NCBI RefSeq assembly: GCF_003344625.1
Contig: NZ_QPKJ02000007.1
Location: 1 to 64,000, forward strand
Reading direction: 5' to 3'
Origin: Solirubrobacter deserti
Lineage (GTDB): Bacteria > Actinomycetota > Thermoleophilia > Solirubrobacterales > Solirubrobacteraceae
DNA length: 64,000 nucleotides
Shown: piece after piece, positions 39,371-45,305 of the stretch
Layout of the letters: each line of letters begins with the position of its first letter
Position numbering within the stretch: position 1 is the first letter of the stretch
The notes under the pieces: model-generated
The model's database searches: none
What the model was told of the DNA's origin: nothing
What the model saw: only the letters and a program-made list of their open reading frames with translations
Program-made: the position numbers and the translations under genes

Positions 39371-40282
39371 CTAGTTTGCGAGACACGCGGCCGGGACGAG
39401 CAGGTACTCCAGAAAAAAGAGCGCCCAGACCCGCATGTAGAAGCGCGTGAACCCGCTGTGCGAGCGGGGTTCCGCGCTCCTGGCCCAGTACAGGAGCACT
39501 GCCGCGGCCGCCACGTGCCCGCCCGCGAGGACGAACGGATTCGCGTAGTCGACCAGCAGCGGCGGCGCCACCAGCGCCATTCCGGCGTAGGCAATCAACA
39601 GGGCTGCCAAACCCGCCCGGAACACCCGCTCGGGCCCGATCCGCACCGTGAACGTGCGGATCGCGTAGCGCCGGTCGCCCTCAATGTCCGGCACGTCCTT
39701 GAGGATCGCGATCGCGAGGCTGAACGGGAGCACGAACAGGCACAGCGCGATCACCGGCGGGTCGATCTGCCCCGCGAAGTGCCAGTACACGCCGAGGTTC
39801 ACGATCACCGACCGCACGCCCGAGATGCACAGGCTCGCCGCCACCGGATAGCGCTTGAGCCGTAGCGGCGGCAGCGAGTACACCGCCCCGACGGCGAGGC
39901 CCGCCGCGACCGCCGCCGTCTCCCACCCGCCCTGCGTGACGGCCATGGCGAGCGGCGCCACCGTGCACACCGCGACGATCGCCGTCGCCGCGCCGATCGA
40001 CAGCTCGCCCGCGGCGATCGGCAACAGCGGCTTGTTGACGCGGTCGATCTCCACGTCGGTGATCTGATTGATCCCGACGATCGCGACGTTGACCATCAGG
40101 CCGGCGAGCAGCGTCGCCGCGAGGTCCCACGCGGGCGTCGCGGCCTCCGCGATCACGTAGAGCCCGAGGACCGACAGCGCCGTCCCGATCACCGTGTGCG
40201 GCCGCGAGAACCGCCACAGCGTCATCAACGGGTTCGCGCGCGCAGCGACCCGCGGGGCGGTGGCTGCGCCGGCGCGGCTCAC
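39371..40282 (-). CDS. UbiA prenyltransferase, homogentisate phytyltransferase-like
   Basis: The 303-residue integral membrane protein has eight or nine hydrophobic segments. It carries the UbiA aspartate motifs 'NQITDVEIDRVNKP' and 'KDVPDIEGDRRY'. The N-terminal 'WRFSRPHTVIGTALSVLGLY' and the C-terminal 'FYMRVWALFFLEYLL' are, from memory, nearly the same as in cyanobacterial and plant homogentisate phytyltransferase (VTE2, Slr1736). That enzyme joins homogentisate and phytyl diphosphate in the first step of tocopherol synthesis. A VTE3-like methyltransferase gene lies 37 bases upstream on the same strand. Prenyl donor and acceptor are inferred. Confidence 0.85.
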   Translation of the reverse strand: MSRAGAATAPRVAARANPLMTLWRFSRPHTVIGTALSVLGLYVIAEAATPAWDLAATLLAGLMVNVAIVGINQITDVEIDRVNKPLLPIAAGELSIGAATAIVAVCTVAPLAMAVTQGGWETAAVAAGLAVGAVYSLPPLRLKRYPVAASLCISGVRSVIVNLGVYWHFAGQIDPPVIALCLFVLPFSLAIAILKDVPDIEGDRRYAIRTFTVRIGPERVFRAGLAALLIAYAGMALVAPPLLVDYANPFVLAGGHVAAAAVLLYWARSAEPRSHSGFTRFYMRVWALFFLEYLLVPAACLAN

Positions 40283-40319
40283 GCGCCCGCCCGTGCCGCG
40301 TGCGTCTCGCCGCGCGGCT

Positions 40320-41120
40320 TCACGACGCGGCTCGCTTCTCTCTGCGGGCCCGCAGCGCGAGCACGGCCGCGATCGGCACGAAGGCGGCGCCCGCCGCCGA
40401 CCCGGCCACGAACCGCGCCGCGAACTTCACCCGGCTCGGCGCGGGCTCCTCGGCCGGCGCCGCGCGCCCCGCCGGGGACGCGCCCGCCCCGGCGACGCCG
40501 CTCACCGCCAGCGCGTAGGGCACGCGCTCGTCGCGGTACCAGTCCGGCGCGAGCTCGACGACGCGCACGTCCGTGAACCCCGCCGCCTCCATCCAGCCCG
40601 TGTAGTCCGACACGGGCGGGAACAGCATCCACGCCTCCGCGAGCCAGCGCGCGAAGCGGTTCGCGGGCCGCACGGGCCCGATCACGAGCGCGGTTCCGCC
40701 CGCGCGGGTGACGCGGTAGGCCTCGGCGATCCCCTGCTGCGGGTCCGGCCAGTACTCGATCGAGCCCGCGGACACGTACCGGTCGAAGCTGTCGTCCTCG
40801 AACGGCAGCTGCTCGGCGTCCCCCAGCACGCGGCGGCAGGCGGCGAGCGCGGGCTTGGCGCGCGAACGGTGCAACTGGTGCGGGCTCTGGTCGAGCATCG
40901 TCACGTCGGCCGCGTCCACACGCGCCACGATGCCTTCGGTGGTGAAGCCCGTCCCGGCGCCCGCGTCGAGCACCTTCAAGCCGGGCTCCAACCGCGCCGC
41001 ATCCAGCGCCAGAGCGCGCATGGCGGGGGTCCAGAAGAGCGGGTTGACCCAGCGGTCATACCCCAGCGAGAGGAACCGGTAGAACCAGAACGCCTCGCGC
41101 TTGTGCTGGATCAGCCTCAT
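40320..41120 (-). CDS. MPBQ/MSBQ methyltransferase-like protein (VTE3 type)
   Basis: The 266-residue protein begins 'IQHKREAFWFYRFLSLGYD' and has the SAM motif 'VLDAGAGTGFTTEGIV', then 'MLDQSPHQLHRSR', 'DRYVSAGSIEYWPDPQQGI' and 'ALVIGPVRPANRFARW'. From memory these match plant VTE3, which methylates 2-methyl-6-phytylbenzoquinone and the plastoquinone precursor. A hydrophobic segment near the C-terminus ('FVAGSAAGAAFVPIAAVLAL') matches the membrane anchor of VTE3. It is the first gene of the pair with the homogentisate phytyltransferase-like gene. Only 20 bases separate its start from the divergent gene at 41141. Confidence 0.88.
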   Translation of the reverse strand: MRLIQHKREAFWFYRFLSLGYDRWVNPLFWTPAMRALALDAARLEPGLKVLDAGAGTGFTTEGIVARVDAADVTMLDQSPHQLHRSRAKPALAACRRVLGDAEQLPFEDDSFDRYVSAGSIEYWPDPQQGIAEAYRVTRAGGTALVIGPVRPANRFARWLAEAWMLFPPVSDYTGWMEAAGFTDVRVVELAPDWYRDERVPYALAVSGVAGAGASPAGRAAPAEEPAPSRVKFAARFVAGSAAGAAFVPIAAVLALRARREKRAAS

Positions 41121-41140
41121 TGCTTGGGCACCATACGGCC

Positions 41141-41671
41141 ATGAGCGAGGAGCTGGACCACTGGCTGCCCGATCCGGTGATCCGCAGTCGCCACCGGCGA
41201 GCGGCGCGCGCGACGCCCGCGGACCTGTGGGCGGCCGCGACGAGCATCCGCCTCGAGGAGACGCGGCGGCTGGGACGCCTGGTCGGCTGGCGCATCCCGG
41301 GCGTGCAGGGGTCGATGACCTACCACGAGCTGTTTCGCGCCTACCCCTTCAACGTGCTCGACGAATCCGAGCAGCGGCTCGTGTCCGGCCTGTGCGGGCG
41401 TATCTGGACGCTCGCCCGCGACTACCCGACGCTCGACGGCCCTGACGCGTTCAGGGCCTGGGATGAGCCCGGCACCGTGCGCGTCGCGTTCGCGCACGGC
41501 GTGCGTGCGCTCGAGGACGGGCGCTCGGAGCTGTGGTCGGAGGCGAGGGTGCAGCCGATCGACACCAGCGCCCGCCTGCGCCTGAAGGCCGTGTGGGCCG
41601 TGGTCGGCCCGTTCGAGCGCCTCGTGGGCGCCGAGCCGCTCGACCTCGCGGCTCGCCGCGCGGAAAGTTAG
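41141..41671 (+). CDS. Unknown 176-residue protein (DUF2867/SRPBCC-like)
   Basis: ATG 41141 gives 176 residues. The pattern 'ATPADLWAAATSIRLEETRRLGRLVGWRIPG' followed by 'TVRVAFAHGVRALEDGRSELWSEARVQPIDTSARLRLKAVWAVVGPFERLVG' resembles START/SRPBCC-type ligand-binding proteins related to DUF2867. The ending 'VWAVVGPFERLV' is typical. It shares a short divergent promoter region with the VTE3-like gene. Function is unknown; a hydrophobic ligand is plausible. Confidence 0.65.
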   Translation: MSEELDHWLPDPVIRSRHRRAARATPADLWAAATSIRLEETRRLGRLVGWRIPGVQGSMTYHELFRAYPFNVLDESEQRLVSGLCGRIWTLARDYPTLDGPDAFRAWDEPGTVRVAFAHGVRALEDGRSELWSEARVQPIDTSARLRLKAVWAVVGPFERLVGAEPLDLAARRAES

Positions 41672-41708
41672 GCGGACAACTCGACGTGGCGTCAATATCC
41701 TCGCCTTG

Positions 41709-44051
41709 ATGGAGGCGGACCAGCAGCGGATCGAGGCTGCTCGCCGCCTGCTCGGCGAGGCTCCGGGGGAGGCGATCGATCGGCTCGCCGCGCTCGGCGC
41801 GCGCCTGCTGGGCGCTTCGTACGCGCAGGTGTCCCTGTTCGCCGACGTGCAGGTGCCGCTCACGCCCCCCACGCCGCGCCGGCCGCCCGCGGACGCGCTC
41901 GTCGAGGCGACCTTCTACGGCCAGGAGCCGCCCAAACAGGCCGGGATCGGCGCGTACCTGGGCGTGCGGATCGAGGCGGCGGGCCACTGCGTCGGCGTGC
42001 TGTGCGTCTACGACGAGGAGGAGGCGACCTGGACCGAGCACGACCGTGACGTGCTCTCCGAACTGGCGGCGGCGGTCGCGGCCGAGCTCGAGCGCGGGTC
42101 GCTGGCCGCGGAGCTGGAGGACAGCGCCGCGCGGCTGAGCCTCGGGTTCGCGGCGGCAGACATCGGCAGCTTCGACTGGGACCTGCGGACCGACGCGCTG
42201 CAGTTCGACGAGCGGCTGATGGAGCTCTTCGGCTACACGCCCGCGACCTTCACCGGGCACATCGACTCCTTCGTCGCCCGTCTGCACCCCGAGGACCGGG
42301 CGCGCACGCAGGCCGCCATCGCGAAGGCGGTCGACCGCCTCGGCGACTACGAGGCCGACTACCGCGTCGTGCACGAGGACGGCACGGTCCGCTGGGTCGC
42401 CGCCCGCGGGCGGGTGATCGGCAACGACGGCACGCCGGTGCGGATGCTCGGCGCCGCCTACGACACGACGGCCGTCCACAGCGCCGCCGAGCGACTCGGC
42501 CGCGTGCTCGAGACGATGAGCACGGCCTTCCTGACGCTCGACCTCAACTGGACCTTCACGTACCTCAACGGCGCTGCGGAGCGGATCTTCGGCCGCAGCC
42601 GCGGGGAGCTCGTCGGCCGCTGCGTCTGGGACGTCTATCCCGAGCTGGAGGGCACGGAGACCGCCGTCGCGTACCGCCGCGCGATCACGACGGGCGAGCC
42701 GCAGAGCTTCGAGCAATACCACCCGCCGCTCGACATATGGTTCGACGTCCGCGCAACGCCGGGCGAGGACGGCCTGTCGGTCTACTTCCACGACATCACC
42801 GGCCGCGTCCGCGCCGAGCAGGACGCGGCGCGGCTCGCGGGCGAGCGCGAGGACGCGCTGGCCGCGAGCGGCGCCGCCACCGGCCGGCTGCAGATCCTCA
42901 GCGCGGCGAGCGCCCGGCTGGCGGGGACGCTGGAGGTCGACGAGCTGCTCACGATCCTCTCGGACGTGGTGGTGAACGGGTTCGGCGCGGCGGTCGTGGT
43001 GGCCCTGCGCGACCGGATCGTTCGCGACCTGGCGGGCAAGCCGACGATGCCCGACGGCGGCAAGGCCTTCCGCATCGCGCACACCGTGAACGTCGACCCG
43101 GCGCTGCACGGCGCCACGATCCCCGCGACCGCGCTCGCCGCCGGCGCCGTGCAGCAGCGCCCAGCGCGCGAGCTGGACGAGCGCCTGGGCGACCGGCTCT
43201 CGCTGACGCTCCCGCTCATCTCCCGCGGCCGCATGCTGGGTGCCATCGTCGTCCTGGACCCCGTGACGGGCGCCCTCGACCGCCGCGTGCTGACCGAGCT
43301 GGCCGCGCGCTCGGGCGTCGCGCTCGACAACGCGATGCTCTACGGCGCCGAGCGCCGCCTCGCGCTCACGCTGCAGCGCAGTCTGCTCCCGGCCGACCTG
43401 CCGGAGCTGCCGGGCATCGAGCTGGCCACGCGCTATCTCCCGGGCACGGGCGGGCGCGACGTCGGGGGCGACTTCTACATCGCCCACCCGCTCGAGGACG
43501 GGCGCGTGCTGCTGGTGATTGGCGACGTGATGGGCCACGGCGCGCAGGCGGCAGCCCGCATGGGTCAGCTGCGCGCCGTGCTGGCCGCCTATGCCTACGA
43601 CGGCGACCCGCCCGACCGCGTGCTCGCCCACCTCAGCGTCCGCGCTCCCGCGCTGCTGGACCTGCCGATGGCGACCGTCCTGGCCGCCGTCTATGACCCG
43701 CAGGACCGGCGCTTGACGTTCAGCCTCGCCGGCCATCTGCCGCCGCTGATCGCTCCGCGCGACAGTGCCCCGTACTTCGCCGACGCCCGCCCGGGCCCGC
43801 CGCTCGGCACCGAGACCGGCGAGTACGCCCGCCACACGCTGACGCTCCCGCCCGGTGCCACGCTCGTCTTCTACACGGACGGCCTGATCGAGGAGCGCGA
43901 GCTGGCGATCGACGCCGGGATGGAGCGCCTGCGCCAGGCCCTCGACGGCGTCGACCTGGACCCGGACGGCGTCGCCGACCACGTCCTGCGCGCGCTCGAC
44001 CGCGAGCAGGGCGGCGAGGACGACATCGCGCTGCTCGTCATGCGGGCGTAG
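41709..44051 (+). CDS. GAF-PAS-PAS-GAF-PP2C serine phosphatase
   Basis: ATG 41709 (780 residues) is preferred to the TTG at 41706. The order is GAF (about 15-135), PAS (145-265, 'GSFDWDLRTDALQFDERLMELFGY'), PAS (270-380, 'DLNWTFTYLNGAAERIFGRSRGELVG'), GAF (395-550) and a SpoIIE/RsbU phosphatase (560-780). Metal-site motifs are 'VGGDFYIAHPLEDG', 'VIGDVMGHGAQAAA' and 'GGEDDIALLVM'. It is a second sensor phosphatase for the partner-switching network. Its 3' end overlaps the convergent tocopherol cyclase-like gene by 14 bases. Confidence 0.9.
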   Translation: MEADQQRIEAARRLLGEAPGEAIDRLAALGARLLGASYAQVSLFADVQVPLTPPTPRRPPADALVEATFYGQEPPKQAGIGAYLGVRIEAAGHCVGVLCVYDEEEATWTEHDRDVLSELAAAVAAELERGSLAAELEDSAARLSLGFAAADIGSFDWDLRTDALQFDERLMELFGYTPATFTGHIDSFVARLHPEDRARTQAAIAKAVDRLGDYEADYRVVHEDGTVRWVAARGRVIGNDGTPVRMLGAAYDTTAVHSAAERLGRVLETMSTAFLTLDLNWTFTYLNGAAERIFGRSRGELVGRCVWDVYPELEGTETAVAYRRAITTGEPQSFEQYHPPLDIWFDVRATPGEDGLSVYFHDITGRVRAEQDAARLAGEREDALAASGAATGRLQILSAASARLAGTLEVDELLTILSDVVVNGFGAAVVVALRDRIVRDLAGKPTMPDGGKAFRIAHTVNVDPALHGATIPATALAAGAVQQRPARELDERLGDRLSLTLPLISRGRMLGAIVVLDPVTGALDRRVLTELAARSGVALDNAMLYGAERRLALTLQRSLLPADLPELPGIELATRYLPGTGGRDVGGDFYIAHPLEDGRVLLVIGDVMGHGAQAAARMGQLRAVLAAYAYDGDPPDRVLAHLSVRAPALLDLPMATVLAAVYDPQDRRLTFSLAGHLPPLIAPRDSAPYFADARPGPPLGTETGEYARHTLTLPPGATLVFYTDGLIEERELAIDAGMERLRQALDGVDLDPDGVADHVLRALDREQGGEDDIALLVMRA

Positions 44052-44904
44052 CCCCGTCTTCCAACGCCGCCATCGTCGACTCGCCGCGGAACCACACCCG
44101 GCGGCCCCGGCGCACGGTCACCTCCACCCGCCCCAGCAGGTGGTGGCGGGAGCGGACCTCGAGCCGGCGCTCGCGCGGGATCGGCACCGGGAGCAGGAGC
44201 GCGTCGGCGGCCTCGCCGCTCAGCTCGACGTTCCAGCGCCAGGAGGAGGCGCGGATCGACCACTCGCCAGCGCCCGCCCGCGCCACCGTGCGGGCGAGCG
44301 GCGGGGCGAGCGTCACGAGCTCGTCTTCAGTCCACACCGCGACCGCCGTCGGCGCCACGCCGTGCACGCGCCCGCCCGCGAACGCGACGAACTCCGCCTG
44401 CCCCCACCACCAGTGCGCGGCGAACACGGCGCCCCAGTTCTTCTCGGCGTAGCCGTGGGCGTCGAGCGTCCGCGTACCGAACGATCCGCGCGCGCGGGCG
44501 CCCAGCAGCCAGGGCGACCAGTACTGGCCCAGGAACGGGATCATCTGCGCCGGCCCGAGCGGGGAGAACGGGCGGCGCGGCCACTCACGCCGGTCCTCGA
44601 AGCGCACGTCCAGCCCGGGCCCGAGATCGACCCGCAGCGAGGCGCCGTCGGCGTGCAGCGGCCCGGCCTCCACGCCGAGCCCGTCGCGGGAGAGCCGCGG
44701 GGAGTCGACGATCTCCGTCCACAGCTCGCCGTCCGAGGTCGCCAGCGCAACCATCGCCCACCCGCGGCACACGCCCGCGATCGCGAGCGCGCTCCAGCCG
44801 GGCTCGTAGATCCGCCAGTAGTAGCCCTCGAGCCCGACGCCGTGCGCACGCCGAGGGTCGCCGAACGGCCCGTCGGCGCCTGTGCGGCGGTACAGCGAGC
44901 TCAG
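44038..44904 (-). CDS. Tocopherol cyclase-like protein, probable CTG start
   Basis: The conserved frame reaches the stop of the upstream gene without ATG, GTG or TTG; the first in-frame GTG (44772) would remove the conserved 'RRAHGVGLEGYYWRIYEPGW'. A CTG at 44904-44902 overlaps the upstream TGA (CTGA), just like the ATGA couplings elsewhere. With it the protein has 288 residues. Diagnostic parts are the 'HGVGLEGYYWR' start, 'IPFLGQYWSPWLLGARARGSF' and 'GYAEKNWGAVFAAHWWWGQAEF' (152-172), which matches the AEKNWG-W-W-Q region of plant and cyanobacterial tocopherol cyclase (VTE1). The enzyme closes the chromanol ring. It is shorter than plant VTE1. Confidence 0.78.
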   Translation of the reverse strand: MSSLYRRTGADGPFGDPRRAHGVGLEGYYWRIYEPGWSALAIAGVCRGWAMVALATSDGELWTEIVDSPRLSRDGLGVEAGPLHADGASLRVDLGPGLDVRFEDRREWPRRPFSPLGPAQMIPFLGQYWSPWLLGARARGSFGTRTLDAHGYAEKNWGAVFAAHWWWGQAEFVAFAGGRVHGVAPTAVAVWTEDELVTLAPPLARTVARAGAGEWSIRASSWRWNVELSGEAADALLLPVPIPRERRLEVRSRHHLLGRVEVTVRRGRRVWFRGESTMAALEDGATPA

Positions 44905-45305
44905 CGAGAGATCAGCGCGTGGGTGACGGGGACGTTCCAGCGGGCCTCGCCGGCGGCGATCGCCTCGTCCTCGCGGTAGTCGCGGTCGCCTTCGGGGTGG
45001 GAGAAGATCACGATGCGGTCGGCCTTGAAGGTCACCAGCGCGTCGTCGATGGCCTGGGCCGGCTCGGATTCTCCCACCTGGCCGGCGGCGTCCACGCCAT
45101 CCTCCTCCAGCCGCTCGACGGTCTCGGTCTGGGCGTGTTCGGCCTCCGCGATCGCGTCGTCGGGGTCGGACACCCAGAAGGCCAGCTTGGACTGGTTGGT
45201 GGCGGGCGAGAGCACGAGCACCTCCGCGCCCTCGACCTCGTCGCCGAGGGTCGAGCGCAGGAAGTCGGCGTCGATCGGCTCAGGGGTGACGACGAGCAGT
45301 TTCAC
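44901..45305 (-). CDS. Small Rossmann-like protein
   Basis: GTG 45305 overlaps the preceding stop (GTGA) and gives 134 residues. The fold looks like alternating strands and helices ('KLLVVTPEPIDADFLRSTLG', 'AEVLVLSP', 'ALVTFKADRIVIFSHP'), similar to universal stress or USP-like domains but without the ATP-binding Gly pattern. It is translationally coupled to the glycoside hydrolase before it and the cyclase after it. Function is unknown. Confidence 0.7.
   Translation of the reverse strand: MKLLVVTPEPIDADFLRSTLGDEVEGAEVLVLSPATNQSKLAFWVSDPDDAIAEAEHAQTETVERLEEDGVDAAGQVGESEPAQAIDDALVTFKADRIVIFSHPEGDRDYREDEAIAAGEARWNVPVTHALISR

Follow-up and report, generated by a model that had tools for sequence, protein, structure and literature searches.

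Genes for a candidate tocochromanol (vitamin E-type) pathway in Solirubrobacter deserti

Genes at the locus

The window analysed in this study is a stretch of 64,000 nucleotides, positions 1 to 64,000 of contig NZ_QPKJ02000007.1 in the Solirubrobacter deserti assembly GCF_003344625.1 (7.55 Mb, completeness 96.7, contamination 5.0; class Thermoleophilia, phylum Actinomycetota). Three of its minus-strand genes encode a homogentisate prenyltransferase (HPT) of the UbiA family, a methyltransferase (MT) of the plant VTE3 type and a divergent tocopherol cyclase-like protein (Table 1), and with them this non-photosynthetic soil bacterium appears to carry core genes for vitamin E-like lipids, one of them closely plant-like. 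An original prediction made from the sequence had placed three open reading frames (ORFs) at these coordinates, where we found them; the three genes do not, in the window, form a single operon: two plus-strand genes split the cyclase from the MT-HPT pair. MT precedes HPT on the minus strand by 37 bases, and compact versions of the gene cluster occur in related genera.

Table 1. Features of the locus, in window coordinates.
Feature	Position	Strand	Remarks
Homogentisate prenyltransferase (HPT; VTE2-type UbiA enzyme)	39371..40282	-	303 aa; later start at 40225 possible
Plant-VTE3-type MPBQ/MSBQ methyltransferase (MT), C-terminal membrane anchor	40320..41120	-	266 aa
Conserved neighbour, no Pfam family	41141..41671	+	predicted Bet v 1/START-like (helix-grip) fold
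GAF-PAS-PAS-GAF-SpoIIE phosphatase gene	41706..44051	+	between MT and cyclase
Divergent tocopherol cyclase-like protein (PF14249)	44038..44904	-	YAEKNWG motif
Usp-like gene	44901..45305	-	by eye; 3′ end overlaps cyclase frame

HPT scores 323.5 bits on NF009525, the NCBI homogentisate phytyltransferase model, well over the cut-off of 226; the second-best model reaches 94.5 bits, the best ChlG model 69.8 and the best MenA-type model 27.0. Enzymes of this kind carry two Asp-rich motifs, N-Q-x2-D-x3-D and K-D-x2-D-x3-D, and residues N72, Q73, D76 and D80 together with K195, D196, D199 and D203 of our protein are invariant in the five-row alignment A1. The protein is 44% identical to the Synechocystis slr1736 sequence, and 39-48% identical to the cyanobacterial HPTs among the matches listed in a genome scan, for which the best 80 of 320 confirmed loci were kept; in the same scan it matched the HPT of S. 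deserti CPCC 204708 at 100% identity. A sequence search of solved structures returned ChlG, digeranylgeranylglyceryl phosphate synthase and a prenyltransferase, and records of JGI and NCBI already name the HPT by automatic annotation. Of 92 HPTs extracted, 52 were used (with 25 cyanobacterial rows after thinning) in a 59-row tree. In this tree, which also had six ChlG sequences and one plant sequence and left out MenA, other UbiA types and homogentisate solanesyltransferase, the HPTs split from ChlG at 100/100, and 13 Solirubrobacterales-type rows (one labelled Actinomycetota only) fell on one side of a branch supported at 73/99. The backbone with respect to cyanobacteria and other actinobacteria is weak: a clade of Solirubrobacterales-type and other actinobacterial HPTs was not rejected (p-AU 0.332), and neither was a cyanobacterial HPT clade (p-AU 0.615). 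The prediction of a homogentisate phytyltransferase-like enzyme is thus upheld by the NF009525 score and by its grouping with HPTs, and the grouping with MenA, UbiA or chlorophyll synthases that had been feared was not seen, in the model scores or, for ChlG, in the tree. We conclude that the protein belongs to the HPT family; it would be expected to act on homogentisate, and may use a C20 diphosphate. As a separate observation, the HPT of L087, from a metagenome-assembled genome (MAG) labelled 'Gracilibacteria', clusters with Hydrococcus at 100/99, so that this contig is probably cyanobacterial.

The most telling part of the locus is MT. Its identity with Arabidopsis VTE3 (At3g63410) is 49% over 264 residues (E 1e-78), through the C-terminal anchor, and with the 11 plant VTE3s compared it is 49-52%; the protein has a Methyltransf_11 domain and, as in Arabidopsis VTE3, a hydrophobic stretch near the C-terminus (residues 238-256 of 266), in agreement with the earlier description of a plant VTE3-like enzyme with a C-terminal anchor. 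The plant enzyme acts on both MPBQ and MSBQ and is considered non-cyanobacterial in origin, cyanobacteria using another methyltransferase. No plant-type VTE3 was found in 12 HPT-bearing genomes (ten cyanobacterial, one Calditrichota MAG and one MAG labelled Deltaproteobacteria), in which the best match scored 48 bits and four had a match at E 1e-10. The Solirubrobacterales-type and plant MTs group at 99/98 against six of the distant methyltransferases from these genomes, which lie on very long branches, in a tree whose 11 plant rows were picked from 120 listed; with few plant rows and distant long-branch outgroups, this tree shows kinship and not direction. JGI annotation automatically names homologues of MT 'MPBQ/MSBQ methyltransferase', and the solved-structure search returned generic methyltransferases. 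Identification of MT as UbiE/MenG or as MpqE was rejected, since all 25 NCBIfam models shown, of 44 matching, lie below their cut-offs, MpqE model NF052510 reaching 31.4 bits against a cut-off of 335. MT therefore belongs to the VTE3 family and would be expected to methylate the ring of a prenyl-benzoquinol.

The third protein passes PF14249 with 36.2 bits (cut-off 26.6) over model positions 183-334 and contains YAEKNWG, so that the prediction of a tocopherol cyclase-like protein with an AEKNWG motif holds and the feared failure on a VTE1 profile was not seen. Alignment A2 (27 rows, without fragments, duplicates and the class genomes G115 and G023) has 10 invariant columns common to the cyclase family; the exact YxEKNWG motif, as defined in the text of PMC4963081, is present in 24 of its rows and absent from L051, L205 and L206. 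Cyanobacterial cyclases form a separate branch in the cyclase tree (98/91), and a sequence search of solved structures gave no match for the cyclase at E 1. The family and the predicted fold suggest, without fixing, a candidate substrate, to which we return below.

The cyclase frame contains no ATG, GTG or TTG ahead of the conserved EGYYWR motif (44773-44904, minus strand), and a start near 44904 would consequently have to be a near-cognate codon. Such a codon is likewise missing ahead of the motif in four of five Solirubrobacter loci, counting the window (the window/L071, L062, L072 and L075). In all four the cyclase directly follows and overlaps a Usp-like gene, and the relative frame of the two is the same; the cyclase of S. 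soli (L074) has a GTG, and no Usp-like gene matched there. A near-cognate start, coupling or frameshifting could explain these start-less frames. The Usp-like gene lies upstream of the cyclase in three of the nine named cyclase-bearing loci (L071, L072 and L075) and in G157, and is probably a flanking gene rather than part of the pathway. As in the window, the SpoIIE phosphatase gene separates MT from the cyclase in G157, S. phytolaccae and S. soli; the remaining HPT loci with a cyclase (L075-L078, L081 and L083) gave no match to it.

Linkage and occurrence in related genomes

Genes of related loci were taken from a simple gene finder, or from stop-to-stop ORFs where few or none were called. 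Of 13 related loci, 10 have MT next to HPT, and in the remaining three the sequence upstream of HPT is shorter than 135 bases. Nine of the ten named MT loci, across genera, keep the cyclase within 5 kb, and in G041 and L076 it directly precedes MT-HPT on the same strand. Among 199 genomes of the class, HPT and MT occur in the same four, all of which are among the 14 with a cyclase (hypergeometric 1.6e-5, a guide only because the genomes are related). Contamination by a phototroph was considered and rejected, as several named Solirubrobacter records share these genes together with a flanking transketolase and transaldolase.

The surroundings of the cyclase were inspected in eight of the ten cyclase-bearing class genomes where no HPT was found. 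In three of them, G077 and the two congeneric genomes G113 and G137, it adjoins a MenA-like UbiA gene, which hints at a naphthoquinol substrate; on TIGR00751 (cut-off 102.15) these genes score 101.0 bits in G077 and 122.6 in G113, the one in G137 being recognised by eye. No UbiA gene was recognised by eye near the cyclase in the other five. In the clade that holds all ten linked cyclases (91/99), a UbiA-family gene is the direct neighbour of the cyclase or lies no more than 5 kb from it in 13 of 14 members, which supports a prenylated quinol as the cyclase substrate, with a head group that may vary. The HPT-less cyclases beside a MenA-like gene are those of L063 (7712-8530), L066 (3998-4936) and L069 (8488-9414; gene by eye). 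A natural present/absent pair is provided by L065 (G017) and L061 (G107), whose surroundings are the same by eye (nadA/nadC-like, prfB-like and secA-like genes): both have the cyclase and the START-like gene, and only G107 has HPT-MT.

Across 396 genomes of the phylum, HPT exceeds its cut-off in 12, namely G000, G041 and ten from four other families, and MT is found in only two (E 1e-20). The 11 loci from those other ten genomes (L207-L217; 10.7-20 kb, some cut by contig ends) contain neither MT nor cyclase at E 1e-4, and we therefore consider only the Solirubrobacterales-type cluster. In L211-L214 a second UbiA-like gene, seen by eye, adjoins HPT. Outside the phylum, the Calditrichota MAG (L114/L206) and the MAG labelled Deltaproteobacteria (L144/L205) have HPTs 45% and 44% identical to ours, respectively, each with a PF14249 protein on another contig; contamination may be the source of both.

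Proposed pathway and competing explanations

A homogentisate source was sought in the window's own genome, to which the HPPD and reductase searches were confined, and an HPPD gene was found outside the locus (TIGR01263, 444.5 bits, cut-off 277). An Lrp/AsnC regulator is its neighbour, and a single gene separates it from an HgmA-like gene whose scores exceed the Pfam cut-offs and not the NCBI equivalog cut-off. No geranylgeranyl reductase in this genome exceeds the cut-off, the best TIGR02032 match having 87.7 bits against 158.8, and a second match (66.6 bits, 82.6 on the called gene) adjoins a squalene/phytoene synthase-family gene. The donor could accordingly be geranylgeranyl, phytyl or a longer chain.

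On balance we consider it probable that the locus is the core of a homogentisate-derived tocochromanol pathway in non-photosynthetic Solirubrobacterales. The best reading is a combination of a cyanobacterial-type HPT, a plant-type VTE3 and a divergent cyclase, and it is best for the first two enzymes. HPPD would convert 4-hydroxyphenylpyruvate to homogentisate, which the UbiA enzyme would join to a prenyl diphosphate with loss of CO2, giving 2-methyl-6-prenyl-1,4-benzoquinol; the membrane-anchored VTE3-type enzyme would put on a second ring methyl group. The lipocalin-like cyclase could then protonate the first double bond of the tail so that the adjacent phenol closes the ring, making a chromanol the likely product. 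If there is no fourth enzyme, this would be gamma-tocopherol-like, or gamma-tocotrienol-like with geranylgeranyl diphosphate as donor. The conserved START-like protein may, more speculatively, carry or present the lipid, whose role is likely to be protection of the membrane from oxidation in dry, irradiated soil. The tocopherol-type pathway originally proposed is thus supported in the identities of its genes, while tocopherol is a possible product only, in view of the reductase result and of cyclases that occur also without HPT.

Several observations weigh against the tocochromanol reading. The cyclase aligns to no more than the latter half of the Pfam model, and its identity to the seven cyanobacterial sequences in A2 is 19-22%. 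In the window it does not form one transcription unit with MT-HPT. In L082, which has MT-HPT, the 1.7 kb of sequence upstream of MT shows no cyclase, although a compact arrangement would fit there. Cyclases occur without a detected HPT in 10 of the 14 cyclase-bearing class genomes, and on the cyclase tree the copies linked to HPT are intermingled with unlinked ones. The position of HPPD so close to an HgmA-like gene means that homogentisate also has a catabolic fate, and a reductase above the cut-off is lacking.

The alternative that survives best, which we nevertheless judge unlikely, is that the product is a long-chain benzoquinone resembling plastoquinone, alone or together with the corresponding plastochromanol-type chromanol. 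HPT would then use a C35 chain, as for MK-7, in the manner of a homogentisate solanesyltransferase, and the product of the VTE3-type enzyme would be a homologue of plastoquinone serving as an electron carrier or radical quencher. The substrate range of plant VTE3, with which the family name of MT agrees, would suit this, as would the reductase result. It is also consistent with the menaquinones of the class, MK7-H4 being recorded in 8 of 12 Thermoleophilia species in the text of a 2026 bacterial quinone survey (PMC13386864), and with the plastoquinone relatives described in non-phototrophic Nitrospira (PMC12324825). However, the linkage of a cyclase implies that the pathway ends in a chromanol, and HPT scores best with the phytyltransferase model, the HPT tree having contained no homogentisate solanesyltransferase. 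Improbable to a greater degree is that HPT and MT give a methylated prenyl-benzoquinol while the cyclase-like protein acts elsewhere, on menaquinol or another lipid, and is nearby through ancestral gene order. This possibility draws on the HPT-less cyclases, three with MenA-like neighbours, on G017, which keeps the cyclase and START-like gene without HPT-MT, on L082, and on the description of heterotrophic cyclase-like proteins as of unknown function in PMC4963081; the same-strand arrangement in G041 and L076 and the retention of the cyclase within 5 kb across genera argue against it. It is hardly credible that the UbiA protein is instead a prenyltransferase of the MenA, ChlG or lipid type whose neighbours are unrelated: UbiA enzymes share a fold and the protein does score weakly with ChlG and other models, but NF009525 stands far above these, ChlG is clearly split off, and a menaquinone cluster with a strong MenA lies elsewhere in the genome.

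More doubtfully, we also suggest a wider model in which Thermoleophilia possess a modular, light-independent chromanol cassette, consisting of a PF14249 cyclase, a START-like carrier and the UbiA enzyme of the lineage. HPT with VTE3 would yield tocochromanols and a MenA-like enzyme naphthochromanols, and plastid VTE3 would derive from such a bacterial lineage and not from the cyanobacterial endosymbiont.

Tocochromanols are stated in PMC5745509 and PMC6602966, in the text available, to be made only by photosynthetic organisms. If the tocochromanol reading is true, conservation of the cluster among heterotrophs, named isolates included, would overturn this view; orphan bacterial cyclase-like proteins would gain a testable function, and a plant-type enzyme would become available from a compact source in bacteria. 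Bacterial VTE3 sequences are also added to the question of where plant VTE3 came from, on which they bear because cyanobacteria use a different methyltransferase, as our search of ten genomes agrees.

Comparison with known systems

In Synechocystis the tocopherol genes are slr1736 (HPT), slr1737 (cyclase) and Sll0418 (methyltransferase). The Solirubrobacter locus resembles the cyanobacterial pathway in its HPT, at the identities given above, and in the cyclase family with its invariant columns. It differs in the type of methyltransferase, the plant type having been found in none of the ten cyanobacterial genomes, in a cyclase that scores 36 bits against 456-555 in those genomes, in the clustering of the genes and in a host not known as a phototroph. 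The plant pathway (VTE2, VTE3 and VTE1) is matched in MT and its similar C-terminal anchor, whereas Solirubrobacter has a bacterial gene cluster and no reductase over the cut-off.

The methyl-plastoquinone pathway of Nitrospirota (MpqE; NF052510) is, as described in the text of PMC12324825, another case of a plastoquinone relative in a non-phototroph, but MT falls far below the MpqE cut-off. The 2016 study PMC4963081 describes tocopherol cyclase-like proteins in heterotrophic bacteria, leaving their function open; these 19 proteins are of the same kind as ours, share YxEKNWG and include actinobacterial examples such as Rhodococcus rhodochrous and Corynebacterium testudinoris. In contrast to the present locus, the available text mentions no linked prenyltransferase or methyltransferase, and 'solirubrobacter' occurs in it 0 times. 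The survey PMC13386864 annotated ubiquinone, rhodoquinone, plastoquinone and menaquinone pathways, as far as its text shows, and 'tocopherol', 'homogentisate' and 'solirubro' have 0 occurrences in its main text. We found no report of the Solirubrobacterales cluster in the open-licence literature, and no open-licence paper pairing 'homogentisate phytyltransferase' with 'Solirubrobact'. The proteins sharing the predicted cyclase fold, AttH, the CghA-Phm7-Fsa2 pericyclases and kievitone hydratase, differ from it in sequence (6-13% identity) and in substrates. The kind of pathway was known, as were the automatic database names for HPT and MT. The novelty lies in the host, in the clustering of the genes, in the occurrence of a plant-type VTE3 among bacteria and in the proposal of a concrete function for the divergent bacterial cyclase.
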